NCBI RefSeq assembly: GCF_019697375.1
Contig: NZ_JAHCDI010000004.1
Coordinates: forward strand, 1,847,324 to 1,911,323
DNA from: Micromonospora tarapacensis
Lineage (GTDB): Bacteria > Actinomycetota > Actinomycetes > Mycobacteriales > Micromonosporaceae
DNA length: 64,000 nucleotides
Direction of reading: 5' to 3'
Every line of letters begins with the position of its first letter. Position 1 is the stretch's first letter. Under the pieces are notes generated by a model. That model saw nothing but the letters and a program-made list of their open reading frames with translations. It made no database searches and was not told the DNA's origin. The translations under genes and the position numbers were made by a program. Of this stretch, positions 36,070-53,778 are shown piece after piece.

Positions 36070-37121
36070 CTGTCCGTCATCGAGTCGCCACCCCACGCGA
36101 CGCCGGCCCGGTCCGCACCGCCGTCCGGGCACCGCCGTGCCGCGCTGCGGGCCGGTGGCCTCGCCGCCGCCGCGCTGGCGCTCCTCGCGGTCGCGGTGCT
36201 CAGCATCACCGTCGGCGCCAAGCCGATCCCGCTGCCCGACGTGTGGCAGGCCCTGACGGACCGCGACGCCGACGAGTACGCCGTCGTCCGGCAACTGCGC
36301 GTGCCACGTACGCTGCTCGGCCTGCTCGCCGGCACCGCCCTCGGCGTCGCCGGTGCGGCGATGCAGGCGCTGACCCGCAACCCGCTCGCCGATCCCGGCC
36401 TGCTCGGCATCAACGCCGGTGCCGCCGCCGCGATCGCCACCGCGGCAGCCCTGTTCGGCGTCGCCGGCGGCACCGGTCAGGTCTGGTTCGCGCTGCTCGG
36501 CGCCGCCGTCGTCACCGTCGGCGTGTACGCCGTCGGCGGTGGCCGCACGGCCACCCCGGCGCGGCTGGCCCTGGCCGGTGCGGCGCTCAACGCGGCCCTC
36601 TACTCGTACGTCAGCGCGGTGATGCTGCTCGACGCGGCCGGACTGGAACGGCTGCGCTTCTGGACCGTCGGGTCGCTGGCCAGCGCCGACACCGGCACCG
36701 TGCTGCGGGTGCTGCCGTTCATCGCGGTCGGGCTGCTGGTGGCGCTGGCCGCGGCCCGTCCGCTCAACGCGCTCGCCCTGGGCGACGACGCCGCCCAGGC
36801 ACTGGGGCCCGCCCGGCCCTGACCCGGGCGGCGGTGATCGCCGCGATCACCCTGCTCTGCGGCGCCGCCACGGCCGCCTGCGGGCCGATCGTCTTCGTCG
36901 GGCTGCTCGTGCCGCATCTGGTCCGCGCCCTGACCGGGCCCGACCTGCGCTGGCTGCTGCCGTACTGCGCGCTGCTCGCCCCGGTGCTGCTGCTCGGCTC
37001 CGACGTGCTCGGCCGGGTGGTCGGCCGCCCCGGCGAACTCCAGGTCGGGCTGGTGACGGCGGTGGTCGGCGGCCCGCTGTTCCTCTGGCTCGTGACGCGG
37101 ACGAGGACGGCCCGCACATGA
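36070..37121 (+). CDS. FecCD-family iron-siderophore permease (frame-interrupted, rare CTG start)
   Basis: 350 residues after correction, with about nine membrane helices and the family motifs RVPRTLLGLLAGTALGVAGA and QALTRNPLADPGLLGINAGA. The frame ends early at 36822 and resumes in the neighbouring frame (LTRAAVIAAITLLCGAATAA) after one missing base near 36804-36810. No ATG, GTG or TTG is available upstream of the first helix; CTG at 36070 sits 6 bases after GGAG and is the best start. First gene of the uptake operon behind the iron box. Confidence 0.85.
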
Positions 37122-38202: not shown

Positions 38203-39012
38203 ATGCCGACCTCCCGGCTGGGTGGCAGCGGGCTGCGGCTCGCCTACGACCGGCGGATCGTCGCCGAGGACCTGACCGTCGCCGTGCCCGACCGGTCCTT
38301 CACGGTCATCATCGGCCCGAACGCGTGCGGCAAGTCCACCCTGCTGCGCGCGCTGTCCCGGCTGCTCAAACCGGCCGCCGGGTCGGTGCTGCTCGACGGT
38401 GAGGACATCCACCGGCGGCCCGCCCGGTCCGTGGCCCGTACGCTCGGGCTGCTACCGCAGTCACCGATCGCCCCGGACGGCATCGGCGTGGCCGAGCTGG
38501 TCGCCCGGGGGCGCTACCCGCACCAGGGCCTGCTGCGCCAGTGGTCCCGCGAGGACGAGCGGATCGTGGCCGAATCTATGGCCGCCACCGGTGTCGACGA
38601 CCTCGCCGACCGGCTGGTCGACGAGTTGTCCGGCGGCCAGCGGCAGCGGGTCTGGCTGGCCATGGCGCTGGCCCAGCAGACCCCCCTGCTGTTGCTGGAC
38701 GAGCCGACCACCTACCTCGACATCGCCCACCAGATCGAGGTCCTCGACCTCTGCGCCCGGTTGCACGAGGAGCAGGGCCGCACCCTGGTCGCGGTGCTGC
38801 ACGACCTCAACCACGCCGCCCGATACGCCACCCACCTGATCGCGATGCGCGGCGGGCAGGTGGTCGCCGCCGGCGAACCCCGGCGGATCGTCACCGCCGG
38901 CCTGGTCGAGGAGGTCTTCGGCCTGCCCTGCCGGGTCATCGACGACCCGGAGACCGGCACCCCACTCGTGGTGCCGGCCGCCCGCGCCCGAGCCGGTACG
39001 GTGGCCCGGTGA
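38203..39012 (+). CDS. Iron-siderophore ABC transporter ATP-binding protein
   Basis: 269 residues (ATG at 38203 behind GGAG; a GTG at 38137 overlapping the permease stop is the alternative). Walker A GPNACGKST, signature LSGGQRQRVWLAMALAQQ, Walker B LLLLDEPTTYLDI and switch histidine VLHDLNHAARY. It powers the FecCD pair. The stop overlaps the penicillin acylase homologue start, so uptake and acylase are one transcript. Confidence 0.93.
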   Translation: MPTSRLGGSGLRLAYDRRIVAEDLTVAVPDRSFTVIIGPNACGKSTLLRALSRLLKPAAGSVLLDGEDIHRRPARSVARTLGLLPQSPIAPDGIGVAELVARGRYPHQGLLRQWSREDERIVAESMAATGVDDLADRLVDELSGGQRQRVWLAMALAQQTPLLLLDEPTTYLDIAHQIEVLDLCARLHEEQGRTLVAVLHDLNHAARYATHLIAMRGGQVVAAGEPRRIVTAGLVEEVFGLPCRVIDDPETGTPLVVPAARARAGTVAR

Positions 39013-41051
39013 CCGCCCGACGCTATCGGGACGCGCACGGGATCCCGCACCTGCGCGCCGACGACCACGGATCGCTGGCCTTCGCCCAGGGTCGGGTCAC
39101 CGCGCTGGACCGCGCCTGGCAGATCGAGGTGGAACGGCACCGGTCCCAGGGCACCTCCGCCTCGTTCCTCGGCACCGAGGCGCTGGCCTGGGACAGCTTC
39201 GCCCGCCGGGCCCGACTCGACGACACCGCGCGGCGCTGCCACGCCGCCCTCGGTCCGGCCACCGCCGGCTGGGTGGGTCACTACGTCGACGGGGTCAACG
39301 CCGGGCTGGCCGCCGGCGCGGCCCGGGCGCCGGAGTTCACCGCCACCGGCCTGGCCCCGGGCCGGTGGCAGCCGTGGACACCGCTCGCCCTCTGGCTCAC
39401 CCACCACGTGCTGTTCGCCGGCTTCGGCACCAAACTCTGGCGCGAACACGTCGCCCGCCGGCTCGGCCCGCAGGCGGCCGGCCTGTTCACCGTGGACGGC
39501 CACGTCACGTCCGGCAGCAACGGCTGGCTGCTCACCGCCGACCGCACCGCCGGCGGTGCCGCGCTGATCGCCGGTGACCCGCACCGGTTCATCGAGGCGC
39601 CCGGCATCTACCAGCAGATCCGCCTGGCCTGTCCCGAGTACGACGTGCTCGGCTTCGCCGTACCCGGAATTCCGGGCATCGCGCACTTCGGCCATGCCGG
39701 CGGCGTCGCCTGGGCCATCACCAACGCGTCGGCCGACTACCAGGACGGGTACGCCGAGCGACTGCGCCGCCGGGGCGACCGGGTCGAGGCGTACGGCCCG
39801 GACGGGTGGCGGCCCGCGCACCGGCACGTCGAGACGATCGAGGTGGCCGGCGCCGATCCGGTCGAGGTCGAGGTGATCGAGACCGACCGGGGGCCGCTGG
39901 TCGCCGGCGGACCCGACGACGACGCGGCCGTCACGGTCAGCCTGCGGTACCCGCCCCGGGTCACCGGTGACCTCGGCTTCGCCGTGCTGCCGGAGCTGCT
40001 GCGGGCCCGTACCGTCGGCGACGTCGACGCGGCGCTGGACGGCTGGGTCGAGCCGGTCAACGTGGTGCTCGCCGCCGACACCGCCGGCGGGCTGCTGCAT
40101 CGGGTCGCCGGCCGGGTGCCGCTACGCGACCCGGACAACGGGCGGCGGGTCGTCCCGGCCTGGGACGCGCGGCACGCCTGGCAGGGCTGGCACACCATGC
40201 CGAAGGCCCCGGTCGACCAGGTGGCGGTGATGGCCAACGCGCGCGGGATCGCCACCGCGCTCGGCGTGGAGTTCGCGCCGCCGCACCGGGCCGACCGGAT
40301 CCGCCAGCTGCTGGACGCGGCCACCGACTGGCGTCCCGAGCGGATGGCGGCCGTGCACACCGACACCTACCTGGCCGCCGCCGGGCCGCTGCTGGAGCTG
40401 CTCGCCGGGCTGGAGGGGCTCGGTCCGGCCCCCGCCGGGCTGCGGGAACGCCTGCTGGCCTGGGACCGGCGGATGGCCGCCGACAGCGTCGACGCCGCGG
40501 CCTTCGCCGATCTGCGGGCGGCGGTGGCCCGCCGGCTCGCGGCCCACCCCGCGCTGGCGGCGCTGGCCGAACCACCCGCCTACCCGGAGGTGTTCCGGCC
40601 GTGGCTGGCCCTGCTGCCCCGGGTCGGCTACGCGATCCTGCCGCTGCTGCACGCCGACCTGCCCGGCCTGGACCGCGCCGCGCTGCTGCGCGAGGCGCTC
40701 GACGAGGTGGCCGCCGCCGGTGACACCCGACGCTGGGGCGAGCGGCACCGGCTCGCACCGTGGCGGGCGCTGCCCGACCCGGCCGCGCCGCCGGGGCCAC
40801 AACTCTCCGGTGACCACGACTGCGTGCTCGCCACCTCCAGCGTTCCCGGCGTCACCGACCTGTGCCTGCGCGGGCCGGCGGCCCGCTACGTGTGGGACCT
40901 GGGCCGGCGCGAGGAGAGCCGCTGGGTGGTGCCGCTCGGCGCCACCGGTGCCGGGCCGCACCGCGCCGACCAGCTGCCGCTGTGGGTGCGCGGCGACCTG
41001 ATCCAGGTGACCTGCGACTGGGACCGGCTGATCGAGGAACACGATGCCTGA
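39009..41051 (+). CDS. Penicillin acylase family (Ntn-hydrolase) protein in desferrioxamine locus
   Basis: 680 residues. N-terminal alpha region (YRDAHGIPHLRADDHGSLAF; GRVTALDRAWQIEVERHR), then the self-cleavage site HVTSGSNGWLL, where the serine of GSNGW becomes the N-terminal nucleophile of the beta chain. No signal peptide is visible, unlike many secreted acylases, so it is probably cytoplasmic. GTG at 39009 overlaps the ATPase stop. Similar acylases sit in some Streptomyces des clusters, where trimming or exchange of hydroxamate acyl groups has been proposed. Confidence 0.88.
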   Translation: MTARRYRDAHGIPHLRADDHGSLAFAQGRVTALDRAWQIEVERHRSQGTSASFLGTEALAWDSFARRARLDDTARRCHAALGPATAGWVGHYVDGVNAGLAAGAARAPEFTATGLAPGRWQPWTPLALWLTHHVLFAGFGTKLWREHVARRLGPQAAGLFTVDGHVTSGSNGWLLTADRTAGGAALIAGDPHRFIEAPGIYQQIRLACPEYDVLGFAVPGIPGIAHFGHAGGVAWAITNASADYQDGYAERLRRRGDRVEAYGPDGWRPAHRHVETIEVAGADPVEVEVIETDRGPLVAGGPDDDAAVTVSLRYPPRVTGDLGFAVLPELLRARTVGDVDAALDGWVEPVNVVLAADTAGGLLHRVAGRVPLRDPDNGRRVVPAWDARHAWQGWHTMPKAPVDQVAVMANARGIATALGVEFAPPHRADRIRQLLDAATDWRPERMAAVHTDTYLAAAGPLLELLAGLEGLGPAPAGLRERLLAWDRRMAADSVDAAAFADLRAAVARRLAAHPALAALAEPPAYPEVFRPWLALLPRVGYAILPLLHADLPGLDRAALLREALDEVAAAGDTRRWGERHRLAPWRALPDPAAPPGPQLSGDHDCVLATSSVPGVTDLCLRGPAARYVWDLGRREESRWVVPLGATGAGPHRADQLPLWVRGDLIQVTCDWDRLIEEHDA

Positions 41052-41631
41052 CGGTCACCACCACGAACGGCACGTGCCCCGGTTCGGCGTGGTCACGTTC
41101 CGCCCGGTCGACCCGGACGGCGACGCCGAGGTGATCCACTCCTGGGTCAGCCAGGAGCGGGCCCGGTTCTGGGGGATGCGCGACGCCGACCGGGACCGGG
41201 TCGCCGAGATCTACCGGTACGTGGACTCGCTGCCCACCCACCACGCGTACCTCACCGAGCGCGACGGGGAACCGGTGGCGCTGTTCCAGACGTACGAACC
41301 GGAACACGACCCGGTCGGCGCGTGCTATCCGGTACGCCCCGGTGACCACGGCGGCCACCTGCTGATCGGCACGCCGGTGCGACCCGAGCCGGGATTCACC
41401 GGCACCCTGCTGGGCGAGTTCGTCGCCTTCGTCTTCACCGACCGCCGCCGGCTGCGGCTGGTGATGGAACCGGACGCCCGCAACGACAAGGCGATCGCCC
41501 GGCTGCGACGGGCCGGCTTCGTCGAGGGCCCGCTGATCGACCTGCCGGACAAGCGGGCCCGGCTGATGTTCCTCGACCGCCCTGGTCGCGCCGCGGATCA
41601 CGCCGGCTCGCAGCGCTCCGACAGGGCGTAG
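41044..41631 (+). CDS. Second siderophore-type GNAT acyltransferase
   Basis: 195 residues in the same IucB/RhbD-like subfamily as DesC: VIHSWVSQERARFWGMRDAD, HLLIGTPVRPEPGFTGTLLG and LVMEPDARNDKAIARLRRAG. The ATG at 41044 overlaps the acylase gene end by 8 bases. It presumably adds an alternative acyl group to a hydroxamate or processes the product of the acylase. Its 3' end overlaps the convergent reductase gene by 34 bases. Confidence 0.87.
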   Translation: MPDGHHHERHVPRFGVVTFRPVDPDGDAEVIHSWVSQERARFWGMRDADRDRVAEIYRYVDSLPTHHAYLTERDGEPVALFQTYEPEHDPVGACYPVRPGDHGGHLLIGTPVRPEPGFTGTLLGEFVAFVFTDRRRLRLVMEPDARNDKAIARLRRAGFVEGPLIDLPDKRARLMFLDRPGRAADHAGSQRSDRA

Positions 41632-42305
41632 CGGGTCAGCACCACGTCGCCGATCTGGCGCGCCTCCACCACCCGGGCCCGCCGCCCCGGATGCCACGGG
41701 AAACTGCCGTCGCCGACGAACCTCGGTGCCCGCCGGTCTCCGACGAAGAACGGTGCCACCACCAGGTGCAACTCGTCGGCCAGGCCGCTGGCGAGGAACT
41801 GGCCGTGCACCACCGCGCCGCCCTCCACCAGCAGCCGGCGCACGCCCCGGTCCGCCAGGTCGGCCAGGACCCGCACCAGGTCGACCGGGTCGCCGGCGTC
41901 GACCACGGTGGCCAGCCCACCCAGCCGGTGCCGGGTCTTGTCCAGCACGCCGCTGGCGCAGTAGACGATCCGGTCGGTGTCACCGACGGTGAACAGGCGG
42001 GCCGCCGGGTCCAGGTCGCCGCAGCCGGTCAGCGTCACCCGGGTCGGTGATTCCGGCAGGCCGCGGGCGAGGCGTTCGGCCCGGCGGCGGTCGCAACGCA
42101 CCAGCAGCCGGGGATCGTCGCGGCGGACGGTGCCGGCGCCCACCAGAATCGCCTCGCAGCCGGCGCGGACCGCGTCGACCCGGTCGAGATCCGCCTCGTT
42201 GGACAGCAGCAACCGGTCGTCGGTGGCGTCGTCGATGTAGCCGTCGATGGAGGTGGCGCAGCTGAGCAGCACGTACGGCCGCGGTGCCGTCGATGGGCCG
42301 GTCAC
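41598..42305 (-). CDS. RibD C-terminal-like / dihydrofolate reductase family protein
   Basis: 235 residues with the RibD reductase pattern: LSCATSIDGYIDDATDD at the N-terminus (substrate loop), AILVGAGTVRRDDPRLLVR as the NADPH region and LLVEGGAVVHGQFL. In riboflavin synthesis this fold reduces the ribosyl side chain of a pyrimidine. Here it is free-standing and translationally coupled to RibA (GTG at 42305, GTGA overlap), so it probably acts on the GTP cyclohydrolase II product. Confidence 0.88.
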   Translation of the reverse strand: MTGPSTAPRPYVLLSCATSIDGYIDDATDDRLLLSNEADLDRVDAVRAGCEAILVGAGTVRRDDPRLLVRCDRRRAERLARGLPESPTRVTLTGCGDLDPAARLFTVGDTDRIVYCASGVLDKTRHRLGGLATVVDAGDPVDLVRVLADLADRGVRRLLVEGGAVVHGQFLASGLADELHLVVAPFFVGDRRAPRFVGDGSFPWHPGRRARVVEARQIGDVVLTRYALSERCEPA

Positions 42306-42946
42306 CGGACGAAGGGGAGGTCGGCGGTGCGGGCGGCGCGGCTGGCCTTGGCCGCGAGGTACCCGGCGTTGGCCGGGGAGAGGAACACCCCGGTGGGCAT
42401 CTGCTCGGTCACGGTCACCCCGAGCCGGGCCAACTGCTCGGTCTTCTCCGGGTTGTTGCTCAGCACCGCGATCGGCCCGACCCCCAGCGCGGCGAGCATC
42501 TGCGCGGCCACCGTGTAGTCACGTTCGTCCTCGGCGTGGCCGAGCGCCACGTTGGCCTCGTAGGTGTCCAGTCCCGCGTCCTGCAACGCGTACGCGTCGA
42601 GCTTGGCGTACAACCCGATTCCCCGGCCCTCCTGCCGCAGGTAGAGCAGGTAGCCGCCGACCTCGGCGATCCGCTGCACCGCCTCCCGCAACTGGGGGCC
42701 GCAGTCGCAGCGCTGGCTGCCGAACACGTCACCGGTCAGGCACTCACTGTGCGGACGGACCAGCGGCACGGACCCGCCACGCTCCCCCGCGCCGGTGTCG
42801 TCACCGAGAGCGAAGGCGACGTGCTCCCGGCCGTCGACCAGCCCGTCGAAGGTGAACAGCCGGGCCGTGGTGGTGTAGCCGTCGGAGAACCGCAGCGGCA
42901 CGGTGACCTGCGTCCGGATGGTGGCGACAGGCAGTGATTCGGACAT
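42302..42946 (-). CDS. ribA: GTP cyclohydrolase II
   Basis: 214 residues. Zinc cysteines in HSECLTGDVFGSQRCDCG, catalytic YLRQEGRGIGLYAKLDAYAL and GTP-contact LSNNPEKTEQL. It opens GTP to a diaminopyrimidine, formate and pyrophosphate. The tyrosine of DAYALQD (Tyr105 in E. coli) is kept; S. coelicolor SCO6655, a cluster homologue, has methionine there and makes the formylated product instead, as I recall. ATG at 42946 behind GAGGAG. Free-standing, without a RibB domain, in a glycolipid-like cluster, not a riboflavin operon. Confidence 0.92.
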   Translation of the reverse strand: MSESLPVATIRTQVTVPLRFSDGYTTTARLFTFDGLVDGREHVAFALGDDTGAGERGGSVPLVRPHSECLTGDVFGSQRCDCGPQLREAVQRIAEVGGYLLYLRQEGRGIGLYAKLDAYALQDAGLDTYEANVALGHAEDERDYTVAAQMLAALGVGPIAVLSNNPEKTEQLARLGVTVTEQMPTGVFLSPANAGYLAAKASRAARTADLPFVR

Positions 42947-42957
42947 GGGTCTCCTCG

Positions 42958-43918
42958 TCAGACGGTGGCTGGAACACGGACACGTCGGGCCAGCAGGACC
43001 GCGGCACCGGGCAGGCTCGCGACGAGCACGAGAGCGCCGTACACCGTCGCGGTGGCCACCCCCTCCGCGGCGGTCAGGCCGGCGGCGGCGAATGCCCACG
43101 CGGCCACCCTCGCGGGGGCCGAACCCGGCCACGTTGGCCGGCACCCCCATCGCGAGCAGGGCCAGCAGGGTCAGCGGCAGCAGCAGGGTCAGCGGGGCGG
43201 TGGAGCCCGCCGTGCGTGCCGCCACCAGGAACGTCGCGAGGTGCCCGGCGACCGCGATCGCGGAGGCCAGCAGCACACCCAGCCAGGTCCGCCGGCCCAA
43301 CAGCCCCCGGCGCACGTCGGACACGGCGGTGCCCACGACGTGGGTGAACCGGGAGGCACCCGAGTGCGGCAGCAACCGGGCGGCCAGCAGCACCGCCACC
43401 AGCACCGCCACCACCACCGCGGTCGCCACCGGCAGGAACGGCCGCACCGGCGACGGGAAGGCGAACAGCAGCACCACGGCGACCGCGACCAGCACCAGCT
43501 GCCCGGCGATCCGCTCCCAGACGACCGCCCGGATGCCGCGGCCGACGTCACCGACGTCGCGGCCGTGACGGACCGCCCGGTGCACGTCGCCGAGGATCCC
43601 GCCGGGCAGGGTCGCGTTGAGGAACACCGCCCGGTAGCAGTGGGCCACCGCGTCGCGCAGCGGCAGCCGGACGCCGAGACCACCGGCGACCAGACTCCAC
43701 CGCCAGGCCGCGCAGACGGTGGTGAGCACACCGATGGCGAGCGCGGCGGCCAGCGCGGGCGCGTCGATCAGCCGCAGCCCGGCCAGGAACGGCCCGGTGC
43801 CCAGCCAGCACAGCAACCCGACGAGCACGGCGAGCCCCAGCGCCAGTCGCGCCCATCCCCAGAACGACCGGCCCGCCGGGGCAGCCGTGGACACGTCACC
43901 AGCAACTGCATCCCCCAC
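42958..43918 (-). CDS. Lysylphosphatidylglycerol-synthase-TM / UPF0104 family flippase-like protein (frame-interrupted)
   Basis: About 320 residues with seven or eight helices. Family features: WRWSLVAGGLGVRLPLRDAV, HCYRAVFLNATLPGGILGDV and GVPANVAGFGPREG near the end. After PREG the frame slips at 43107-43109; two missing G (or one extra) restore a normal final helix and a stop at 42958. GTG at 43918 behind GGGGAGG. Relatives move or modify lipid-linked sugars, so it may flip the cluster's product. Without correction it would read through into ribA, which I regard as artefact. Confidence 0.78.
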
Positions 43919-43980
43919 CCGTGCCTCCCCGGCATGACGATCTTTCCTGACAGTACGCACGCAGCTGGCCGGCAACCGGT

Positions 43981-44804
43981 TCAACGGCGCAGGGCCAGCA
44001 GATCCGCGTGGTCGACCAGTACCCCGAGCCCGCCGGTTTCAGCCTCGGCCAGCCGCCGTCGCGCGTACTCCCGGGTGCGGGCGACGAGTTCGGGACGTTG
44101 CGCGCAGGCCGCGTCGAGCCAACCGGTGAACCACTGGGCCGCCAGGGTGGCCTGCTCCGGACCGAGCCGCCACGGGCTGGGCCGCACGTCGACGGCCACC
44201 CCGTGCCGGGCGAACGCGGCGGCACAGTGCTTTGCGGCGTCCGGCCCGAGCAACCGGCGGCCGTCGACGGTACGGCGCTGGTGGGCGTTGAACGCCGCGG
44301 CGACCTCGGCGTCCAGCGGATCCGCCGGGCTCAACCGCACCGCGCCGGTCACCGAGATCAGGAACAGCGCCGGGCAGCCCGCCTTCGCGCAGGCGGCGAC
44401 CAGCTGGTCGACCTCCTCGGCGGTCAGCATGTCGAGCAGCGCCGAGGCGGTGACCAGGGCGGCGTCGGCCAGCTCGGTGGCGGTCAGCCGGGTCAGGTCA
44501 CCCTGGCGCGTCTCGACCGTCACCGGTGCGCCGTCGGCGGCGGTGCCGGGCACGCCGGCGCGCGCCGGGCCAGCAGGTCCGGATCCCGGTCGTGGAGGAT
44601 CCAGTGCTGCGGCCCCGGCAGCAGCGGGGCCAGCCAGCGGCCCAGCGAACCGGTGCCGGCACCGAGGTCGTGCACGACCAGCGGCCCGCCGCCGGCCAGT
44701 GCCGCCCGGACCGTGTCGACCAGCTCCATCGACCGGGCCGCCACGTCGGCGGGTTCCCGCACGGCGAGCCACTGCGCGAAATCGGACGGGAGATCGATGC
44801 TCAT
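43981..44804 (-). CDS. Class I SAM-dependent methyltransferase (frame-interrupted)
   Basis: 274 residues after correction. SAM site LVVHDLGAGTGSLGRWLAPL, next motif WILHDRDPDLLA, then ALVTASALLDMLTAEEVDQL and a C-terminal FNAHQRRTVDGRRLLGPD. One missing base near 44565 separates the halves. ATG at 44804 behind GGAGGC, overlapping the glycosyltransferase stop by ATGA. Belongs to the same minus-strand operon as the PTPS homologue; the substrate is probably the product of the neighbouring glycosyltransferase or pterin enzymes. Confidence 0.83.
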
Positions 44805-45834
44805 ACCGACGCCTCCTTGAGGGCCGTGGTGATCAGGGCGACGGTGGTCGTCCAGTCGGTGAGGGTGGCCCGCCGCTGGCGGGCGAGCCGGCGCAGGTGC
44901 ACGCGCAGCGGCGCGTCGTCGAGCCAGCGGCGCAGCGCCCCGGCCAGCGCGGCCGGGTCGTCGGGCGGCACGAGCAGGCCGGGCCGTTCACCCGAGGTCG
45001 TCCGCCCAAGGGTGTCGGGCAGCCCGCCGACGGCGGTGGCGAGCACCGGGACGCCGCGGGCCAGCGCCTCGGTGACCACCATGGCGTACGTCTCCCCGCG
45101 CGACGGGTGCACCAGCAGGTCGGCGGCGGCGTATCCGGCGGCGAGGCGCTCGCCGGTCAGTGGGCCGGTCAGCCGGATCCGGTCGCCGAAGCCGTGGGCG
45201 GTGATCCGGTCGTGCAGCCGGTCGACGAACGCGGGATCCCGGTGCAGCGGTCCGACGCAGGTCAGCGTCCAGGGCCGGTCGCTGACCGCCGTGAGCGCCT
45301 CGACCAGCAGGTCGTGGCCCTTGTGCGGGGCGACCGCCGCGACGCAGAGCAGCGCGGAACCGGCCGCCGATCCCGGCGCGGGTGACGCCGGATCCACCCC
45401 GGGCGGGGCGACGTGCACCCGGTGCGCGGGCAGCGCGTAGCGCCGCAGCAGCGCGTCGCGGGTCCAGGTGCTGGTCGCGACGACGGCCGTGGCGCAGCCC
45501 AGCGCCCTGGCCTCGGTGTCGTCGTCGCGGGGCAGGTGCACCAGGACGACCAGGCGCAGCCGCCGGGCGTGCGCGGCGAGGGCGTCCGGCACCACCGAGG
45601 CGACCAGGCCGTCGATCAGCACGAGCGCGCCGTCGGGCGGCTGCGCCAGGACCCGGGCCAGGGCCGCCCGCTCCACGGCCGACGGATCGGGCCAGGCGCC
45701 GGGCACGGGTGTTCGCGGACCGACCAGCCGGCGTCGGCGAGGCCGGTGCAGATCCGCCGGTCGTAGCCGTTGCCGCCGCTGGGTGACGCCGGGTCGTCGA
45801 TGTCGCCCGGCAGGATCACGTGCAGGGTCGGCAC
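44801..45834 (-). CDS. Glycosyltransferase, GT4-like (frame-interrupted)
   Basis: 344 residues, GT-B fold: N-terminal HVILPGDIDDPASPSGGNGY, central LLCVAAVAPHKGHDLLVEAL and the nucleotide-sugar site RGETYAMVVTEALARGVPVL, with the EX7E-type glutamate present. One missing base at 45707-45709 joins the first 40 residues to the rest. GTG at 45834, two bases from the PTPS homologue stop. It transfers a sugar from a nucleotide sugar; acceptor unknown. Confidence 0.85.
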
Positions 45835-45835
45835 G

Positions 45836-46267
45836 TCAGGCGGTGCCCTCGCCCGCACGGTCCGGCCCCGGCAGCGACCGTTCGTAGCTGGCCCAGGCGA
45901 CGTGCGACTCGTGCAGGGTGACCGTGATCCCGGTCAGTCCGTGGGCCCCGGCGCCGAGGGCACCGGCGCTCACCCGGCCGGCGAGCCGGTCGGCGATGGT
46001 CCGGGCCAGCACCTCGGTGGTGGTGTTCGTCCCGGCGAAGGCCGGCTCGTCGTCGAGGTTGCGGTAGTTCAGCTCGGCGAGCACCGCCTTGAGCTGGTCG
46101 GTGGCCAGTCCGATGTCGACCACGATGCCGTCGCTGTCGAGGTCGGGACGGCGGAAGGTGGCGTCGACCACGAACGTGGCGCCGTGCAGCCGTCGGGCGG
46201 GGCCGAAGACCTCGCCGCGGAAGCTGTGGGCGATCATGATGTGGTCACGGACGGTCACGCTGAACAC
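45836..46267 (-). CDS. 6-pyruvoyl-tetrahydropterin synthase / QueD homologue with incomplete zinc site
   Basis: 143 residues, T-fold. The first zinc histidine is in IMIAHSFRG and the second in [13 protein letters not shown], where the usual HGHNY is replaced by HGATF, so the third histidine ligand is lost. The pterin-anchoring glutamate is likely kept near the C-terminus (TLHESHVAW). The S. coelicolor homologue SCO6650 is, as I recall, a T-fold protein without zinc and without PTPS activity. It probably binds a pterin or pyrimidine derived from RibA. GTG at 46267. Confidence 0.85.
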
Positions 46268-46270
46268 GGT

Positions 46271-47251
46271 TCACTCCCCGTCGTAGGTGATGAGGTGGCA
46301 CAGCGCGGGCAGGTCGCCTCCGCTGAGTCGGGCGAGCACGTCGGGCAGCTCCGCGAACGGCGACCGCCCGGTGATCAGCGCGTCGAAGGCCGGTTCGGCG
46401 AGCAGGTCGAGGGCGAGGGCCAGCCGGTCGGCGTAACTGCGACTGCCCCGCCGCGCCGGGGCGACGGTGCCGACCTGGCTGCTGCGGATGGTCAGCCGAC
46501 CGGAGTGGAACGCGCCACCGAGCGAGAGCTGCACCGGCCGGTCGCCGTACCAGCTCAGTTCGAGCATCGTGCCCTCCGGGGCGAGCAGGTCGAGGCCGCG
46601 TTGCAGCCCGGCGGCGGTGGCGCTGGCGTGCACCACGAGATCCCGTCCGCCGACGGCGGTCTCGGGTGCGGCGAAGTCCACCCCGAGCGCGGCGGCCACC
46701 TCGGCGCGCGCCGGGTCGGTGTCGACCAGTTCGACCCGGACGCCGGGGAAGCGGGCCAGCAGCGCCGCCACGGCGCAGCCGACCATGCCGCCGCCGACGA
46801 CGCTGACCCGGTCGCCGACCAGCGGCGGGGCGTCCCACAGCGCGTTGACCGCGGTCTCCACCGTGCCGGCCAGCACCGCCCGGGCCGCCGGGACCCGGTC
46901 GGGCACCACGGTCACGGCGTCGACCGGCACCACGTACGCGCTCTGGTGCGGGTGCAGGCAGAATACGGTCCGCCCGCGTAGCTGCGACGGTCCCTGTTCG
47001 ACCTCGCCTACGCTGAGGTAGCCGTACTTGACGGGGGCGGGGAAGTCGCCCTCCTGGAATGGGGCGCGCATCGTGGTGTATTGGCTGGCGGGAACGCCAC
47101 CGGCGAAGACCAACGTTTCGGTGCCGCGGCTGACGCCGGAGTAACGGCTGCGGACGAGGACCTCGTCGGGGCCCGGCTCGGGCAGCGTCACCGGTCGGAT
47201 CTCACCCGCGCCGGGTGCTCGGAGCCAGAAGGCGCGGGCGGCTCGCGTCAC
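46271..47251 (-). CDS. Zinc-type alcohol dehydrogenase (MDR) superfamily protein
   Basis: 326 residues: GroES-like N-terminal domain (VRSRYSGVSRGTETLVFAGG; FPAPVKYGYLSVGEVE) and Rossmann domain with VSVVGGGMVGCAVAALLARF. The usual cysteine-rich structural zinc loop is missing, as in BchC-like members. First gene of the minus-strand operon (GTG at 47251). Acts as an NAD(P)-linked oxidoreductase on an unknown step. Confidence 0.85.
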   Translation of the reverse strand: MTRAARAFWLRAPGAGEIRPVTLPEPGPDEVLVRSRYSGVSRGTETLVFAGGVPASQYTTMRAPFQEGDFPAPVKYGYLSVGEVEQGPSQLRGRTVFCLHPHQSAYVVPVDAVTVVPDRVPAARAVLAGTVETAVNALWDAPPLVGDRVSVVGGGMVGCAVAALLARFPGVRVELVDTDPARAEVAAALGVDFAAPETAVGGRDLVVHASATAAGLQRGLDLLAPEGTMLELSWYGDRPVQLSLGGAFHSGRLTIRSSQVGTVAPARRGSRSYADRLALALDLLAEPAFDALITGRSPFAELPDVLARLSGGDLPALCHLITYDGE

Positions 47252-47343
47252 GGGTTTTTCTCCTCAGCTGCGTCCGGACCGAACGGATCCGTCGTAATTT
47301 CCGTAGTTCCCTGTCAGGGGTCGTCGATCATAACCACGGAGGC

Positions 47344-48165
47344 ATGGTGTCCACAGTTCGAACCGGTCCGCAAATTGGGCTGATCGTCCAGATTGTCCTG
47401 CTGGCGACACTCGCCGCGACGGTCGGCCTCGGCGGCGCGGGCTGGCTGGCCGGCCTGGCGTACGGCGCGGTCACCTGCCGGGCACTGGTGCACGGCCTGC
47501 GGCACGCCGGCTCGGACCGGCTGGGCCCGGCCGACTGGGTGACGATGGGCCGCGGGCTGCTGGTCGGCGCGGTGACCGCGCTGATCGCCGACGCGCTGGT
47601 CGGCGGCCGTCCCGCGCCGGTGGTGGTGCTGGTGGCGATGACGACGGTCGCGCTGGCGCTCGACGCCGTCGACGGCAAGGTGGCCCGGCGCACCAGGACG
47701 GTCAGCGCCCTGGGCGCCCGGTTCGACATGGAGGTCGACTCGTTCCTGGTGCTGGTGCTGAGCCTCTACGTCGCCCCCGCACTCGGGATCTGGGTGCTCG
47801 CCATCGGCGTCATGCGGTACGCGTTCCTGGCCGCCGGCTGGGTGCTGCCCTGGATGGACGCGCAACTGCCGCCCCGGTACTGGCGTAAGGTGGTCGCCGC
47901 GGTCCAGGGGATCATGCTCGCGGTCGCCGCGTCCCAGGTGCTGCCGGTGCCGCTGACGACCCTCGTGCTGGTGGCGGCGCTCGGCCTGCTCGTCGAGTCG
48001 TTCGGGCGGGACGTCACCTGGCTGTGGCGGCACCGGACGGCGACCGTTAGGGCGGTGCCGGCCCTGGTCGTGCCGTCGGTGCCGATCGGCGTTCGCCGCG
48101 TCGACCGGGTCGACCGGGTCGACGAGCGTGACCTGACCACCGCGCCCGTCCTGTCGCTGCGCTGA
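47344..48165 (+). CDS. CDP-alcohol phosphatidyltransferase
   Basis: 273 residues with about six helices and the complete CDP-alcohol motif at ALDAVDGKVARRTRTVSALG followed by ARFDMEVD (D-x2-DG-x2-AR-x8-G-x3-D-x3-D). It swaps CMP of a CDP-lipid or CDP-alcohol for another alcohol, building a phospholipid head group. ATG at 47344; divergent from the dehydrogenase by 92 bases, so the two arms of the cluster probably share a promoter region. The C-terminus holds a short RVDRVDRVD repeat. Confidence 0.9.
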   Translation: MVSTVRTGPQIGLIVQIVLLATLAATVGLGGAGWLAGLAYGAVTCRALVHGLRHAGSDRLGPADWVTMGRGLLVGAVTALIADALVGGRPAPVVVLVAMTTVALALDAVDGKVARRTRTVSALGARFDMEVDSFLVLVLSLYVAPALGIWVLAIGVMRYAFLAAGWVLPWMDAQLPPRYWRKVVAAVQGIMLAVAASQVLPVPLTTLVLVAALGLLVESFGRDVTWLWRHRTATVRAVPALVVPSVPIGVRRVDRVDRVDERDLTTAPVLSLR

Positions 48166-48179
48166 CCCGGGAGACCCAG

Positions 48180-49892
48180 TTGTCGACCTCCGACCCGGCC
48201 CCCGCGCCGGACGCCGAGCAGCACCCGAACAGCACGACCGAGCCTCCCGTGGCTGAGGTCGGCGCCGGGGCCACCACCCGGGGCCGCCGGATCGCGGCCC
48301 GGGTGGTCACGACGCTCGCCGCCGTGCTGGTGCTGGTCACGTTGACCCTGCCCAACCGCCCGTGGCAGCTGGAACCCGGCGCGTTCCTGCGGATCCCGCT
48401 GGAGGCGCTGCTGCTGGCCGCGCTGCTGCTCGCGCTGCCCGGGCGGCCCCGCCGGGTGGTGGCGGCGGTGGCCGGTGGACTGCTCGGTCTCGTCGCCGTG
48501 GTGAAGGTCGGTGACCTGGGCTTCTATTCGTCGTTGGGCCGCCCGTTCGACCTGGTGCTGGACTGGTCGCTGCTCGACGAGGCGTTCACCTTCGTGGCCG
48601 AGTCGATCGGCCGGCCGGGCGCGATCGCCATCGCGCTCGGTGTCGGGCTGCTGCTGCTGGCCGTGCCGGTGCTGACCGCCCTGTCCGCGGTGCGGCTGTC
48701 CGGGCTGCTGGCCCGGCACCGCACCGGCACCACCCGGGCCGTCGCGTCGCTGGTCGTGGTCTGGGCGGTGCTGGCCGCCGTCGGGGTGCGGATCGTGCCC
48801 GCCATGCCGGTGGCCGACACCAACGCCACCATTCTCGTCCAGGAGCACGCCGCCGAGGTCCGGGACCGGCTGCGCGACCGTCAGGTGTTCGCCAACGAGG
48901 TGGGGGTGGACCCGTTCCGGGACGTGCCCGGCGACCAGTTGCTCACCGGGCTGCGCGGCAAGGACGTGCTGATCGCCTTCGTGGAGAGCTACGGCCGCGA
49001 CGCGGTCACCGACGCCGAGTTCGCCTCCGTCCCCCGGCTGCTCGACGAGAGCGCCGACCGGCTGTCCGCGGCCGGGTTCGCCTCCCGCAGCGGCTTCCTC
49101 ACCTCACCGACCATCGGCGGCGCGAGCTGGCTGGCGCACGCCACCCTGCTCTCCGGTCTGTGGGTCGACAACAACCAGCGCTACCGGAACCTGCTCGCCA
49201 CCGACCGGTTCACCCTCGGTGACGCGTTCCGCCGCGCCTCCTGGCGTACGGTCGGGGTGATGCCGGCGGTCAACCAGGCGTGGCCGGAGGGCGCGTTCTA
49301 CGGCTACGAGCAGTTCTACAGCGGGCCGGACCTGGGCTACCAGGGGCCGAAGTTCGCCTTCGCCCCGATGCCCGACCAGTTCGCCGTGCACACGTTCCAC
49401 CAGCGGGAACTCGCCGTCGAGCGGGACCGGCCGGTGATGGCCGAGCTGGCCCTGGTCTCCAGCCACTCGCCGTGGACCAAGGTGCCGTCGCTGGTCGACT
49501 GGGACGACATCGACAACGGGGAGGTGTTCCGCCAGGGCATCATCGGCACCCCGACGGCGCAGGCCCGCACCGGCTACCGGCACTCGATCAGCTACACGCT
49601 GCGTACCCTCGTCTCCTACGTGGAGAGGTACGGCGACGACGACACGGTGCTGGTCTTCGTCGGTGACCACCAGCCGGCGCCGGTGGTGACCGGCGAGAAC
49701 CCCAGCCACGACGTGCCGATCCACATCGTGGCCAGGGACCCGGCGGTGCTGGCGCGGATCGACGACTGGGGTTGGCAGGACGGCCTCACCCCGGACGCGA
49801 GCGCGCCGGTCTGGCGGATGGACTCCTTCCGCGACCGCTTCCTCACCGCCTTCGGCCCCACCGGTTCCCGCCCCCGGGCCCAACCCCGCTGA
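48180..49892 (+). CDS. Membrane-bound sulfatase / phosphoglycerol-transferase-like protein
   Basis: 570 residues: about five N-terminal helices (40-220), then an extracellular alkaline-phosphatase-type domain. DVLIAFVESYGRDAV holds the first metal acid, SPTIGGASWLAHATLLSG the likely nucleophile, and VLVFVGDHQPAPVV the metal Asp-His pair. Resembles LtaS-type transferases and membrane sulfatases. TTG at 48180 with GGGAG upstream, 14 bases after the CDP-alcohol gene. Likely transfers or removes a phospho-alcohol head group outside the membrane. Confidence 0.87.
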   Translation: MSTSDPAPAPDAEQHPNSTTEPPVAEVGAGATTRGRRIAARVVTTLAAVLVLVTLTLPNRPWQLEPGAFLRIPLEALLLAALLLALPGRPRRVVAAVAGGLLGLVAVVKVGDLGFYSSLGRPFDLVLDWSLLDEAFTFVAESIGRPGAIAIALGVGLLLLAVPVLTALSAVRLSGLLARHRTGTTRAVASLVVVWAVLAAVGVRIVPAMPVADTNATILVQEHAAEVRDRLRDRQVFANEVGVDPFRDVPGDQLLTGLRGKDVLIAFVESYGRDAVTDAEFASVPRLLDESADRLSAAGFASRSGFLTSPTIGGASWLAHATLLSGLWVDNNQRYRNLLATDRFTLGDAFRRASWRTVGVMPAVNQAWPEGAFYGYEQFYSGPDLGYQGPKFAFAPMPDQFAVHTFHQRELAVERDRPVMAELALVSSHSPWTKVPSLVDWDDIDNGEVFRQGIIGTPTAQARTGYRHSISYTLRTLVSYVERYGDDDTVLVFVGDHQPAPVVTGENPSHDVPIHIVARDPAVLARIDDWGWQDGLTPDASAPVWRMDSFRDRFLTAFGPTGSRPRAQPR

Positions 49893-49899
49893 CCCTCGG

Positions 49900-50943
49900 T
49901 CACCCGGGTTTCCGGGCGACCAGGACGTCGCGGACGATGGCCTGGTCGACGCGGTGGGACAGGGCCTGCCACGGGCCGTCGTCGAGAACGGTGAGGCCGG
50001 CGGCGGCCAGTTGCTCGGCGGCGGCCTCGCGCCGGGCCACGTTGGTGTTCCACGAGATGCCGAGGGCGCCGCCGGGGCGCAGGAGCCGGGCCCAGCCCGG
50101 CACGGCCGCCGCGAGCAACCCGAGCGGGTCGCGGGCCAGTCCGGTCGCGGCGGTACGGCTGCCGTGCTGCACGCCGTACGGGGCGTCGGCCACCACCACG
50201 TCGACCGTCTCCGGCCGGAAGAACTCGCCGACCCGGGTGGTGTCGGCGTTGACCACGTCCACCGACTGCACGTCACCGGCCTTGTGTGCCTCCTTCGAGG
50301 CGGCCACCTCCAGCCGCAACCGCCGGCCGACCACCTTGCGTTCGCGGCGCACCGGCCCGGACTCCAGCACCCGGTGTTTGACCCGCTTGCGCTTGAGCCA
50401 GGTGGTAAAAAACGTCTGGTACGCCTCGAAGTCCTTGCTGTCCCGGTCGAGACCGGCGGCGTCGAAGCCGTACATCACCGCCTGGTTGACGGTGGTGCCC
50501 CGGCCGCACAGCGGGTCGAGCACCCGGAACCGCCGGGTGAGCAGGTCACCGGCCCAGTCCGAGGCGAGCAGGGTGACGTTGAGCAGCAGCTTGGTGAACT
50601 GCTCGTTGGTCTTGCCCGGGTACTTCTGGATGGTGATCAGGTCGTCGTCGAAGCGGTCCAGCCGGCCCAGCGGCACCGGGCGCAGCAGGTCGCCGACGAA
50701 CTCGAAGAGCGCGTACACGCTGGAGAGGTTGCCCAGCAGCGCCGCATCCCGTTCGCTGAGCCCCCCGTCGGCGGTGAAGGTGACATAACGCGCCCCGCCG
50801 ACGGTGGCCGTCTGCACCGCACCGATCCGCCCGCCGAGCACCCGGTCGCCGAAGATCTCCAACTCCGCCCGCGTCAACTCGACCGCAGCCCCCGCATAAA
50901 CCCGATTGCTCGACGGCAAAATCAACACCCCATACCCACCCAC
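49900..50943 (-). CDS. TRM11-family SAM-dependent methyltransferase
   Basis: 347 residues. N-terminal THUMP-like part beginning YGVLILPSSNRVYAG, central VLDPLCGRGTTVNQAVMYGF (SAM site) and catalytic VVVADAPYGVQHGS, an N-methyltransferase D/N-P-P-Y variant (DAPY). Members methylate a guanosine of tRNA or other nucleic acid. The GTG at 50943 gives the family's usual N-terminus; a GTG at 50928 is possible. The start lies at the edge of a G-rich tract, so no normal ribosome site is visible. Convergent with the sulfatase. Confidence 0.82.
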   Translation of the reverse strand: MGGYGVLILPSSNRVYAGAAVELTRAELEIFGDRVLGGRIGAVQTATVGGARYVTFTADGGLSERDAALLGNLSSVYALFEFVGDLLRPVPLGRLDRFDDDLITIQKYPGKTNEQFTKLLLNVTLLASDWAGDLLTRRFRVLDPLCGRGTTVNQAVMYGFDAAGLDRDSKDFEAYQTFFTTWLKRKRVKHRVLESGPVRRERKVVGRRLRLEVAASKEAHKAGDVQSVDVVNADTTRVGEFFRPETVDVVVADAPYGVQHGSRTAATGLARDPLGLLAAAVPGWARLLRPGGALGISWNTNVARREAAAEQLAAAGLTVLDDGPWQALSHRVDQAIVRDVLVARKPG

Positions 50944-51030
50944 AACCCCCACTATCCCACCCCCACCCCCACCCCCACCCCCACCCGTTACCCCCCACCC
51001 CACCCCACCCCCACCCCCCACCCCCGCCCT
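50944..51030. repeat. C-rich low-complexity tract (G-quadruplex-prone on minus strand)
   Basis: An irregular run of CCCCCA/CCCCA units over about 85 bases, broken by short pieces such as CTAT and GTTA. On the minus strand it reads as repeated GGGGGT immediately upstream of the TRM11-like start, giving many more than four G3 runs. It is unlike any other sequence in the window. Confidence 0.8.
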
Positions 51031-51033
51031 GCC

Positions 51034-51102
51034 GATCATGCAGTTGTGGCGCCCGGAACGCCCCTGTTCGAGGCATTCGTGAGGCACCACAACTGCATGA
51101 TC
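51034..51102. repeat. Palindromic repeat element with 16-base arms
   Basis: GATCATGCAGTTGTGG at 51034-51049 is repeated as its exact reverse complement at 51087-51102, around a 37-base centre. It has moderate GC content, unlike its surroundings, lacks an open frame, and lies between the truncated protease gene and the C-rich tract. It looks like a REP/MITE-type intergenic element that could also end protease transcription. Confidence 0.7.
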
Positions 51103-51112
51103 GACGAGATCG

Positions 51113-52163
51113 TCAGGCGGGGAGGCCGCCCACCTGGGTGTTGATCCAGGGGGGATGGAGGGCAGGTCGCGGTAGCAGGCACCGGAGCTGCTGGGGTTGT
51201 TGGTGCAGATCTCGTACACGGCGTTGATGCCGCTGCACCGGCTGTCCGCCACGGTCGGCGCCGAGCCGCAGCCGCGTACCGGGCAGGTCAGGCCCCAGCC
51301 GGTGATCCGGGTGGCGGTGCCGACCGCGCCGGAGGAGGTCGGAATCCGGGCCGGCGCGTAGCTGACCGAGCTGGACAGCTGGAACAGCTTGACGTCGATG
51401 CTCGGGTGGTTGACCGCCCGGCTCACCCTGACCACCGTGCCGCCGTACCGCCGCTGCTGCGGTTGGTGCTGCCCACCCGCACCGAGGACGGTGTCGGGCA
51501 GTGCTTCGCGGTGACCACCCGGTTGGCCTTGATCAGGGTGCCGGCGCAGCCGGAGGTGTAGACCAGCCAGGGGTAGTTCTCGGTGGCCGGCCGGCCACCG
51601 ACCACGAGAGTGCCGAAGTCGGTGTCCTCCTGCGCCCAGGTGTACGTCTCGGCGACGCCGGCGGTGCTGCGGCTGCCCGCGAAGAGTTGGTTGACCCGGC
51701 TCGCCTCGGCGGCGCTGGGATACGCGTTGGTGCAGGAGACCGGGGCGCTGCTGCCGGACATCAGGTCGGAGCAGAGCCCGGTGCGCCGGTCGGGCAGGCC
51801 GAGGATGTGGCCGAACTCGTGGGTGGCGATCCGGGTGCGGTGGTAGCCCTGGTCGACCGCCTGCCAGCCCATCCAGATCCGGCCCGAACCGAGTCCGGTG
51901 ACCTGGGCCCGGGGCCAGCCGCTGTCGACCAGGATGGTGACGCTGGCCGGCGCGCCGGCCACCAGCCGGACGTTGCCGACCCGGCTGTTCCAGATCTGGG
52001 CGGCCTGGTCGAAGTTGGTCCGGAACTCGCCGGCCCGGCTGGCGTCGTAGTAGACGGTCCGGGCGGCGGCGGCACCGGTGGCGGTGACCACCTGGACTCC
52101 GGTCGTCGCCAGCACCGCCGCCAGCGCGGCGGTGGCCGCGCGCAGCAGCTGTCGTCGGATCAT
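51113..52163 (-). CDS. Secreted snapalysin-like metalloprotease fused to a degenerate trypsin domain (frame-interrupted)
   Basis: About 350 residues. ATG at 52163 behind GGGGAG opens a signal peptide (RRQLLRAATAALAAVLATTG, cleaved after AAAA). Residues 35-170 are an M7 snapalysin: zinc site THEFGHILGLPDRRTGLCSD. Residues 180-350 resemble an S1 protease with histidine in VVTAKHC and aspartate in HPSIDVKLFQL, but the expected GDSGGP serine motif is replaced by RDLPSIPP and the protein stops soon after. Two single missing bases (near 51440 and at 51149-51154) are needed for this model. The end lies 10 bases from a palindromic repeat. Confidence 0.72.
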
Positions 52164-52395: not shown

Positions 52396-52986
52396 ATGCG
52401 GATCAGAAGGACAGCCACCACGCTGGTCGTGGTGCTCACCGCACTGGTCGCCGCGACCGCGGCGGCCACGGCCGCGCCGACCAGCACCCTTTCCGGCACC
52501 TCGGCGACCGGTGCGCCGTACTGCGGGATCACCTGGGGCAGCGGGGACAGGGCGGCCGGAACGCTCAGCTCCGCCCCGCTGGTCGAGGTGCGCACCGGCC
52601 GGCACGACTGCTACGACCGGGTGGTGTTCGAGTTCGCCGGCACCGTCACCGGCTACTCGGTCGGCTACGGCGAGACGTACACCGAGGGTGAGGGACTGGC
52701 CCTGTCGCCGTACACCGCCGGTGACGCGCTGCTGCGGGTCTCGCTGCGCGCCCCGGCGTACGACGACGAGCACGTCGCCACCGTGCCGTACCGGGTCGGC
52801 GACCACGTGGCCAACGTGCTGCGTTACCGGACCCTGCGGGACGTGGTCTTCGGCGGCAGCTTCGAGGGCTACGGCACGTTCGCGGTCGGCGTCCGCGCCA
52901 GGTTGCCGTTCCGGGTCTTCGTCCTGGCCGGCCCCGGTCCGCACAGCCGGATCGTGCTCGACGTGGCGCACCAGTGGCAGGAATGA
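52396..52986 (+). CDS. Secreted AMIN-like domain protein
   Basis: 196 residues with signal peptide MRIRRTATTLVVVLTALVAA. The mature part starts near TSTLSGTSATGAPYCGITWG and holds the conserved HDCYDRVVFEF and VGYGETYTEGEG; its C-terminus FVLAGPGPHSRIVLDVAHQW is typical of the actinobacterial AMIN-like fold, which probably binds envelope glycans. ATG at 52396 behind GAGGAG. It precedes a two-component system by 98 bases and may be its sensor partner or target. Confidence 0.8.
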   Translation: MRIRRTATTLVVVLTALVAATAAATAAPTSTLSGTSATGAPYCGITWGSGDRAAGTLSSAPLVEVRTGRHDCYDRVVFEFAGTVTGYSVGYGETYTEGEGLALSPYTAGDALLRVSLRAPAYDDEHVATVPYRVGDHVANVLRYRTLRDVVFGGSFEGYGTFAVGVRARLPFRVFVLAGPGPHSRIVLDVAHQWQE

Positions 52987-53084
52987 CCGGGCACGGGTGC
53001 GGTGGGCCGGCCTCGGCCGGCCTCCCGCATCCGGCCGTCACGCCGAGCGACACCCCGGCCTCCTCGGACTACCCTGGGTTCATC

Positions 53085-53765
53085 ATGGACGGCCGCGTGC
53101 TGGTGGTCGAGGACGACGCCTCCATCCGGGAGGTCACCGCCCTCGGGCTGCGCCGCGCCGGCTTCCGGGTGGACACCGCCACCGACGGCCGGCAGGCCCT
53201 CGCCGCCTGGCGGGCCGGGCCGGTCGACCTGATCGTGCTGGACGTCATGCTGCCCGGGCTCGACGGCCTACAGGTGTGCCGGGAGATCCGGCGGACCAGT
53301 GCGGTGCCGATCCTCATGCTGACCGCCCGCACCGACACCATCGACGTGGTGGTCGGCCTCGAATGCGGTGCCGACGACTACCTGCGCAAGCCCTTCGATC
53401 TGCCCGAACTCGTGGCCCGGGTGCGCTCGGTGCTGCGCCGCGCGGTCGCCTCGCCGGAGCCGGGTCCGCTGCGGGTCGGCGGACTGGAGATCGACCCGGG
53501 AGCGTTCGTGGCCCGCCGCGACGGCCACGAGCTGCCGTTGACCACCACGGAGTTCCGCCTGCTGCTGGAGCTGGCCCGCCGTCCGGGCCAGGTCTTCACC
53601 CGCGAGTTGCTGCTGGAACTGGTCTGGAGCCACAGCTATCTGGGCGACAGCCGGCTGGTCGACGTGGCGGTGCAACGGCTGCGCGCCAAGGTCGAGCCGG
53701 ATCCGGGCAACCCCCGGCTGATCCGCACGGTCCGCGGCGCCGGCTACAAGCTCGTCACCGGCTGA
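53085..53765 (+). CDS. OmpR-family response regulator
   Basis: 226 residues: receiver domain with acidic pocket VVEDD, phospho-acceptor Asp53 (VLDVMLPGLD), Thr80 and Lys102, then a winged-helix domain (LTTTEFRLLLELARRPGQVF; VDVAVQRLRAKVEPDPGNPR; TVRGAGYKLV). ATG at 53085; no clear ribosome site. Followed after 13 bases by its histidine kinase. Confidence 0.93.
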   Translation: MDGRVLVVEDDASIREVTALGLRRAGFRVDTATDGRQALAAWRAGPVDLIVLDVMLPGLDGLQVCREIRRTSAVPILMLTARTDTIDVVVGLECGADDYLRKPFDLPELVARVRSVLRRAVASPEPGPLRVGGLEIDPGAFVARRDGHELPLTTTEFRLLLELARRPGQVFTRELLLELVWSHSYLGDSRLVDVAVQRLRAKVEPDPGNPRLIRTVRGAGYKLVTG

Positions 53766-53778
53766 GCGGACGCCGGCG

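Follow-up and report, generated by a model that had tools for sequence, protein, structure and literature searches.

The DNA analysed here, referred to below as the window, is a stretch of 64 kb within the 6.9 Mb genome of Micromonospora tarapacensis, and it carries between positions 41598 and 49892 a compact cluster that combines homologues of pterin and pyrimidine enzymes with genes of membrane lipid type. All nine genes of an earlier interpretation made from the letters alone (the sequence-only reading) were located there by Pfam search and inspection of open reading frames (ORFs), the methyltransferase via its orthologue at a locus of the same genus (L033, genome G204); its window piece (263 aa, frameshifted) has no Pfam match. 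The minus-strand genes are, in order, an MDR dehydrogenase, a PTPS homologue, a GT4 glycosyltransferase, a methyltransferase, a flippase-like protein, GTP cyclohydrolase II (GCHII) and a RibD_C-type pyrimidine reductase (RibDC). The divergent plus-strand arm consists of a CDP-alcohol phosphatidyltransferase followed by a sulfatase/LtaS-like enzyme (Table 1). GCHII is encoded within an ORF spanning 42302-43984 on the minus strand, in which it has its own Met start. At L033 the orthologues keep the same gene order, each in a single reading frame, and the profile match of the flippase is full-length.

Table 1. Genes of the cluster, with their positions in the window and the matches on which each assignment is based.
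Feature	Position	Strand	Match
RibD_C-type pyrimidine reductase (RibDC)	41598..42305	-	PF01872, E 4e-42
GTP cyclohydrolase II, KLDAYALQD motif	42302..42946	-	PF00925, E 3e-53
LPG_synthase_TM/flippase-like membrane protein	about 42979..43984	-	PF03706, E 3e-23
Class I SAM methyltransferase	43981..44804	-	L033 orthologue matches Methyltransf_25
GT4 glycosyltransferase	about 44801..45834	-	PF13692/PF00534, E 7e-29
PTPS-IV (FGPA) T-fold protein, SCO6650 relative	45836..46267	-	PF01242, E 2e-24; 3D7J, E 2e-64
MDR dehydrogenase without usual zinc ligands, polyol-dehydrogenase-like fold	46271..47251	-	ADH_zinc_N, E 2e-5 (under Pfam cut-off)
CDP-alcohol phosphatidyltransferase, likely start 47344	47215..48165	+	PF01066, E 4e-12
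LtaS/sulfatase-like membrane enzyme	48180..49892	+	PF00884, E 4e-6, 26.8 bits (cut-off 25)

The core of this cluster is a real and very widespread unit, with a near-constant order across very distant bacteria. A PTPS protein search of 396 genomes of the phylum (threshold E 1e-10, canonical PTPS counted too) gave matches in 40, and the distant Actinomycetota neighbourhoods fetched from it already held MDR, PTPS and GT4 together. An MDR alignment scan of named genomes found at least 570 relatives, the best 80 of which were kept as loci; these were chosen by MDR alone, confirmed against a Rubrobacter-type MDR as first sequence, and their neighbours counted with profiles. They come from Actinomycetota, Pseudomonadota, Chloroflexota, Gemmatimonadota, Acidobacteriota and Myxococcota. 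PTPS is found at 71 of the 80, GT4 at 68, RibDC at 61 and a methyltransferase at 60 (52 window-type, 8 Rubrobacter-type), followed by GCHII (26) and FolB (11). With 71 of the MDR-chosen loci holding PTPS, in 69 of them as the gene immediately following MDR on its strand, the pairing is not due to chance. All five core genes occur at 49 of the 80 loci, and at 40 of the 52 whose flanks extend 5 kb or more in both directions; PTPS was not found at three of these 52 (L060, L065, L073). The sequence-only reading had proposed one coherent pathway and named scattered gene order in relatives as the result that would speak against it; no such scatter was seen across the 80 loci. When the MDR gene alone is counted rather than the whole cluster, 99 of 150 Micromonosporaceae genomes and 67 of 150 from Streptomyces have a match at E 1e-60; in the class to which the Bradyrhizobium locus L081 belongs, 29 of 240 do so at E 1e-50.

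The PTPS homologue is a member of PTPS-IV (COG0720). An FGPA(Q)-type signature replaces CxxxHGH, and PF00925 and PF01872 proteins are both present nearby. The 120 top-ranked database relatives listed, which mostly bear the name Micromonospora, share 85-94% identity with it, and it matches the structure of SCO6650 (3D7J), in agreement with the link to that protein drawn beforehand. The missing zinc ligand noticed at first sight is also genuine: LHGA stands where LHGH is expected, and the protein has likewise lost its catalytic Cys and Asp-His pair. The protein thus has neither the CxxxHGH motif nor the three zinc His and Cys-Asp-His triad of QueD/PTPS-I, and scores 38.3 bits against a TIGR03367 cut-off of 89.25. 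Among 71 PTPS relatives the catalytic Cys position is Ala in every one, Asp is found at its position in only 8, and 68 have Tyr or Phe in place of the His. The third zinc His has become Ala in 57; the 14 that keep it are 13 rows of the Rubrobacter-type MDR clade (see below) and L069, which is absent from the tree. Of the 71, however, 70 retain the base-binding (pterin-binding) Glu, and the last has a gap there. SCO6650 itself is reported to be without PTPS activity or zinc and to retain a pterin-like pocket. Many PTPS-IV entries in the databases are named 6-carboxytetrahydropterin synthase, though the family has none of that enzyme's catalytic residues.

Part of this is in print. The main-text parts of PMC5041015 and PMC5445326 tie the FGPA signature to PTPS-IV or its signature motifs, and those of PMC5445326 name FGPAQ, with PF00925 (there called GTP cyclohydrolase I/FolE2) and RibD_C as neighbours. 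The window protein shares with PTPS-IV as portrayed there (SCO6650, 3D7J) the signature, the absence of the catalytic Cys and the RibA and RibD_C neighbours. These same parts contain no MDR, GT4, methyltransferase, lipid module, FolB or creatininase, and assign the function of PTPS-IV by no published experiment; PMC5041015 involves it in archaeal F420 synthesis, on unpublished work that it cites. SCO6650-6655 appear in the openly licensed literature in single-line mentions in the passages covered of PMC2853524 and PMC3610822, and no openly licensed paper joining PTPS, GCHII and GT4 was found. The description of the cluster as undescribed therefore stands for the remaining gene set and the feeder logic set out below, which were not found in openly licensed papers, and falls for PTPS-IV with its RibA/RibD_C neighbours.

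In the window GCHII the three zinc Cys and a Tyr at the position of E. coli Tyr105 are kept, as is proper to a GCHII. D126/R128 and the zinc Cys are conserved in all 36 copies checked, and the same Tyr occurs in 29 other copies outside Streptomyces (28 cluster loci and one control; L050, a canonical-PTPS locus, is counted among these 30 Tyr-type copies). The altered RibA suspected earlier is thus not found in the window but is a trait of the six Streptomyces loci examined, all of which have Met in place of Tyr. For RibDC, the best solved relatives are 5xux ('Conserved protein', E 2e-30), which we take to be Methanosarcina mazei Rib7, and 6p8c (E 2e-21), a reductase of 2,5-diamino-6-ribosylamino-4(3H)-pyrimidinone 5'-phosphate (DARoPP). 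Residues 7-226 and 8-226, respectively, align with these, with DDPxLxV and VEGG-type motifs in common, and D63, P65, L67, R70 and E161-G162-G163 are kept at 90% or more of 71 sequences (short matches dropped). The window protein therefore resembles the standalone Rib7-type reductases of archaea and fungi over nearly its full length, but it lies under the TIGR01508 cut-off for DARoPP reductases (120.6 against 186.45 bits) and sits in a non-flavin gene set.

Since GCHII, RibD_C, PTPS and, in one clade, FolB belong to ring-handling families, a pyrimidine- or pterin-type substrate fits, and to that extent the product class proposed in the sequence-only reading is upheld; the product itself, like its chemistry, we infer. 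These homologues might instead have been repurposed for a glycolipid or modified sugar lipid with no pyrimidine or pterin involved, given that PTPS has lost its catalytic residues, that 54 of the 80 loci have no GCHII, and that GT4, flippase, CDP-alcohol transferase and LtaS-like enzyme are typical lipid-glycan genes. The residues conserved throughout GCHII and RibDC, the base-binding Glu of PTPS and the recurrence of FolB and creatininase-family genes all argue against such repurposing, which we consider improbable.

The MDR protein has a confident model (pLDDT 91), the closest structures to which are iditol, xylitol, sorbitol, idonate and arabinitol dehydrogenases; polyol dehydrogenases lead alcohol dehydrogenases in the ranking by up to about 3 Z units, too little to separate the two. 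The fold is that of an MDR enzyme, but the catalytic zinc ligands Cys, His and Glu are replaced: at the positions equivalent by eye, Ser41 and Tyr78 are found in all 37 aligned sequences, and position 79 is Ala, Leu, Ser or Ile in 31 of them. His102, His249, Glu45 and Trp234 are invariant in the same 37. The replaced ligands and its own invariant HPHQ-type and SWYG-type motifs set this protein apart from MDR polyol dehydrogenases and from BchC, and window-type MDR falls far under the bchC cut-off of 291. Because a polyol-type enzyme here adjoins a reductase making a ribityl chain, the arrangement suggests that MDR oxidises that chain.

Pairwise distances indicate how far the genes have travelled together (host shared ancestry uncorrected; sequences under 75% of median length dropped; identical pairs, e.g. 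L045/L063, kept). MDR distances correlate with those of PTPS (rho 0.85), flippase (0.80, n=28), GT4 (0.77), RibDC (0.71), LtaS-like enzyme (0.67), CDP-alcohol transferase (0.48) and methyltransferase (0.43), with none of 500 permutations as high in any case. For GCHII, the correlation with MDR is only 0.12, with 17 of 500 permutations as high; its distances correlate with flippase (0.77), methyltransferase (0.48) and RibDC (0.39). Judged by these distances, the cluster is one inherited unit with a mosaic GCHII, which looks like a feeder to the core. A tree of 96 MDR rows (midpoint root; bootstrap not settled; short pieces, L069 among them, dropped) has two deep clades, each at 100/100. One comprises Rubrobacter, Chloroflexota and Thermomicrobiota; the other holds Pseudomonadota, Gemmatimonadota, Acidobacteriota and Myxococcota, with the other actinomycetes nested within. 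The loci with FolB belong to the first type: FolB lies at the cluster in all eight Rubrobacteraceae-type genomes searched (L047, L042 and others), and in seven it is the sole FolB match. At L047, genes for a PHP hydrolase and an AlaX-like protein come after the methyltransferase.

Streptomyces has a different arrangement. RibDC was not found at any of its six cluster loci, and all six genomes hold a RibDC relative elsewhere (54-55% identity). At eight such satellite loci (L133-L140; the six cluster genomes and two more, picked for having a RibDC match), RibDC is in every case fused to a deaminase, reductase domain first, and in seven it adjoins a second GCHII with the window's motif (66% identical to window GCHII at L133). 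Of 150 Streptomyces genomes, 55 have both MDR and RibDC, 12 MDR only, 18 RibDC only and 65 neither (odds ratio 16.6, Fisher p 8e-14, relatedness uncorrected). This satellite pair, and GCHII and RibD_C being riboflavin enzymes, might point to an accessory operon for riboflavin/flavin or F420-precursor supply, and in the parts covered of PMC5041015 PTPS-IV is placed in archaeal F420 synthesis on unpublished work. Neither lumazine nor riboflavin synthase is among the cluster genes found, however, no role in flavin synthesis is known for GT4, methyltransferase or MDR, and one of the two GCHII matches in the window genome lies outside the cluster. An Rfam search of window positions 40000-52000 gave no match, and hence no FMN riboswitch in that region. 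We judge a supply operon very unlikely.

A creatininase-family gene adjoins all six Met-type GCHII genes of Streptomyces (the Pfam profile was run on three of the six, and all three exceed the cut-off). The Met-type SCO6655 reportedly stops at the formamide, as described by the Bandarian laboratory. An extra plus-strand ORF at one of these loci (L036, 13262-13834, no Pfam match) was rejected, as codon-position bias places the gene there on the minus strand, where it is the creatininase-family gene. According to the parts covered of PMC9478397, which does not mention coelicolor, the creatininase-family protein BrbF of S. meliloti converts the formamide to DARoPP, and so in Streptomyces the Met-type GCHII and its neighbour may form a pair that repeats the archaeal ArfA/ArfB steps. 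With ArfA/ArfB and BrbF, as far as those parts describe them, it would share the scheme of a formamide-forming cyclohydrolase with a separate formamidase of the creatininase Pfam family; unlike ArfA/ArfB, the Streptomyces loci would start with a GCHII variant, and the likeness to BrbF is one of family, not of sequence comparison. Two observations tell against a simple rule. Creatininase-family genes are also found at two Tyr-type loci and at five without GCHII, and the protein of L038 scores 36.5 bits against the ArfB cut-off of 180 (NF033501), its best match being the mycofactocin peptidase MftE (TIGR03964, 133.7 of 172 bits).

The proposed membrane anchoring is borne out in part. The window has all three lipid-type genes. 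In its CDP-alcohol phosphatidyltransferase the motif DxxDGxxARx8GxxxDxxxD is complete, D150, D153, G154, A157, R158, G167, D171 and D175 each being conserved at 90% or more in 36 sequences. In the LtaS-like enzyme the putative metal site, which we map onto that of LtaS, has E269, H429, D496 and H497 in 20 of 20 sequences and T311 in 17. A PDB search with this protein gave one match, at chance level, and one with the methyltransferase gave none. Each of these genes is, however, found at well under half of the 80 loci: the CDP-alcohol transferase at 28, the flippase at 21 and the LtaS-like enzyme at 19, with a different acyltransferase at 10. The lipid part therefore looks like an add-on rather than core. 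Together with the conserved motif and metal site, this supports a membrane-linked product in the window's lineage and not in all lineages. Alternatively, the core might make a soluble GTP-derived pyrimidine or pterin glycoside, the three genes serving a separate, co-travelling envelope glycolipid. At least one of them is present at 29 loci and none at 51, including all 18 of Rubrobacter/Chloroflexota type (L053-L069, L123), as expected if they were separate, and the cyanobacterial pterin glucosyltransferase is reportedly also a GT4. But in 26 of its 28 loci the CDP-alcohol transferase lies immediately upstream of MDR in divergent orientation, the flippase is found only alongside it (21 of 21), and flippase distances track GT4 (rho 0.81) as well as MDR. 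On this evidence, a soluble glycoside with a separate glycolipid seems rather unlikely, if still a serious contender.

In this assembly the flippase, methyltransferase and GT4 genes each require two frames when compared with the L033 proteins (tblastn), with breaks near 43089-43115, 44565-44571 and 45688-45706, respectively. A fourth break affects a FecCD gene outside the cluster (36196-37121). This permease adjoins a periplasmic binding protein, a second FecCD and an ABC ATPase, likely an iron-siderophore importer. Runs of at least four G/C are present at the flippase and FecCD breaks and absent at the other two. With three of nine genes frameshifted, and two of the three breaks without a homopolymer run, the locus in this strain might be a decaying remnant rather than a working pathway; but the unrelated FecCD is also frameshifted, which points to an indel-prone assembly, the other six locus genes are open, and MDR is present in 99 of the 150 Micromonosporaceae genomes. 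Assembly indels are the likely cause, and decay is very unlikely.

From the observed gene set, order, motifs, spread and co-inheritance, we infer a conserved pathway to a glycoside of a GTP-derived 2-amino-4-oxopyrimidine, probably of pterin type, a conclusion on which our confidence is evenly divided. In the window GCHII very probably makes DARoPP; in Streptomyces the creatininase-family protein may reach the same compound by deformylating the formamide reportedly left by Met-type GCHII. RibDC would then turn the ribosyl into a ribityl group with the 2-amino group kept, no fused deaminase being present in the window. The zinc-less MDR might oxidise the ribityl chain, most simply at C2', which would yield a ketone able to condense with the 5-amino group to a dihydropterin. 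PTPS-IV might bind the base and guide this ring closure, or merely present the base. GT4 and the methyltransferase would decorate the product, and at the membrane it would be anchored, flipped or capped by the CDP-alcohol transferase, flippase and LtaS-like enzyme.

Extended to its full length, this would be a pterin route independent of GTP cyclohydrolase I (GCHI): DARoPP would pass via the RibDC ribitylamine and an MDR C2' keto form (GCHI's Amadori form) to ring closure by PTPS-IV, and the pterin would be glycosylated, methylated and, in many bacteria, become a membrane-linked glycolipid, Streptomyces having rebuilt the ArfA/ArfB start with Met-GCHII and a creatininase-fold formamidase. We regard this complete scheme as speculative and unlikely to hold throughout. 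Chlamydia reportedly uses an Amadori isomerase to arrive at dihydropterin from the product of GCHII. Cyanobacterial pterin glycoside synthesis also combines pterin enzymes with a GT4, but to our knowledge it begins with GCHI and has no GCHII, RibDC or MDR. A role of the cluster as a substitute for missing GCHI was rejected, as FolE (GCHI) was found in 21 of 22 genomes tested, the sole miss being a metagenome-assembled Roseiflexaceae (G399); the window genome has four matches (G000 C3:125281, C4:4951325, C4:2393459 and C4:4317881) and G204 has one.

Other genes lie nearby. An FkbM-type methyltransferase recurs near the cluster at 23 loci with a BLAST match to an ORF of L081 (L081, L070, L083 and others), 17 of which also match a GT2 ORF of L081. 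In the window, a large penicillin-amidase family protein (PF01804, E 4e-146; 38541-41051) is followed by a GNAT acetyltransferase (41044-41631), and a response regulator, a histidine kinase and a Germane/Gmad2 protein lie consecutively at 52974-56105, resembling the MtrAB-LpqB operon.

The gene set is thus common to loci of at least six phyla, and many of its PTPS proteins carry misleading database names, that of an enzyme whose catalytic residues they do not have. In Streptomyces, the pairing of Met-type GCHII with a creatininase-family protein would give a purpose to the odd formamide product reported for SCO6655.

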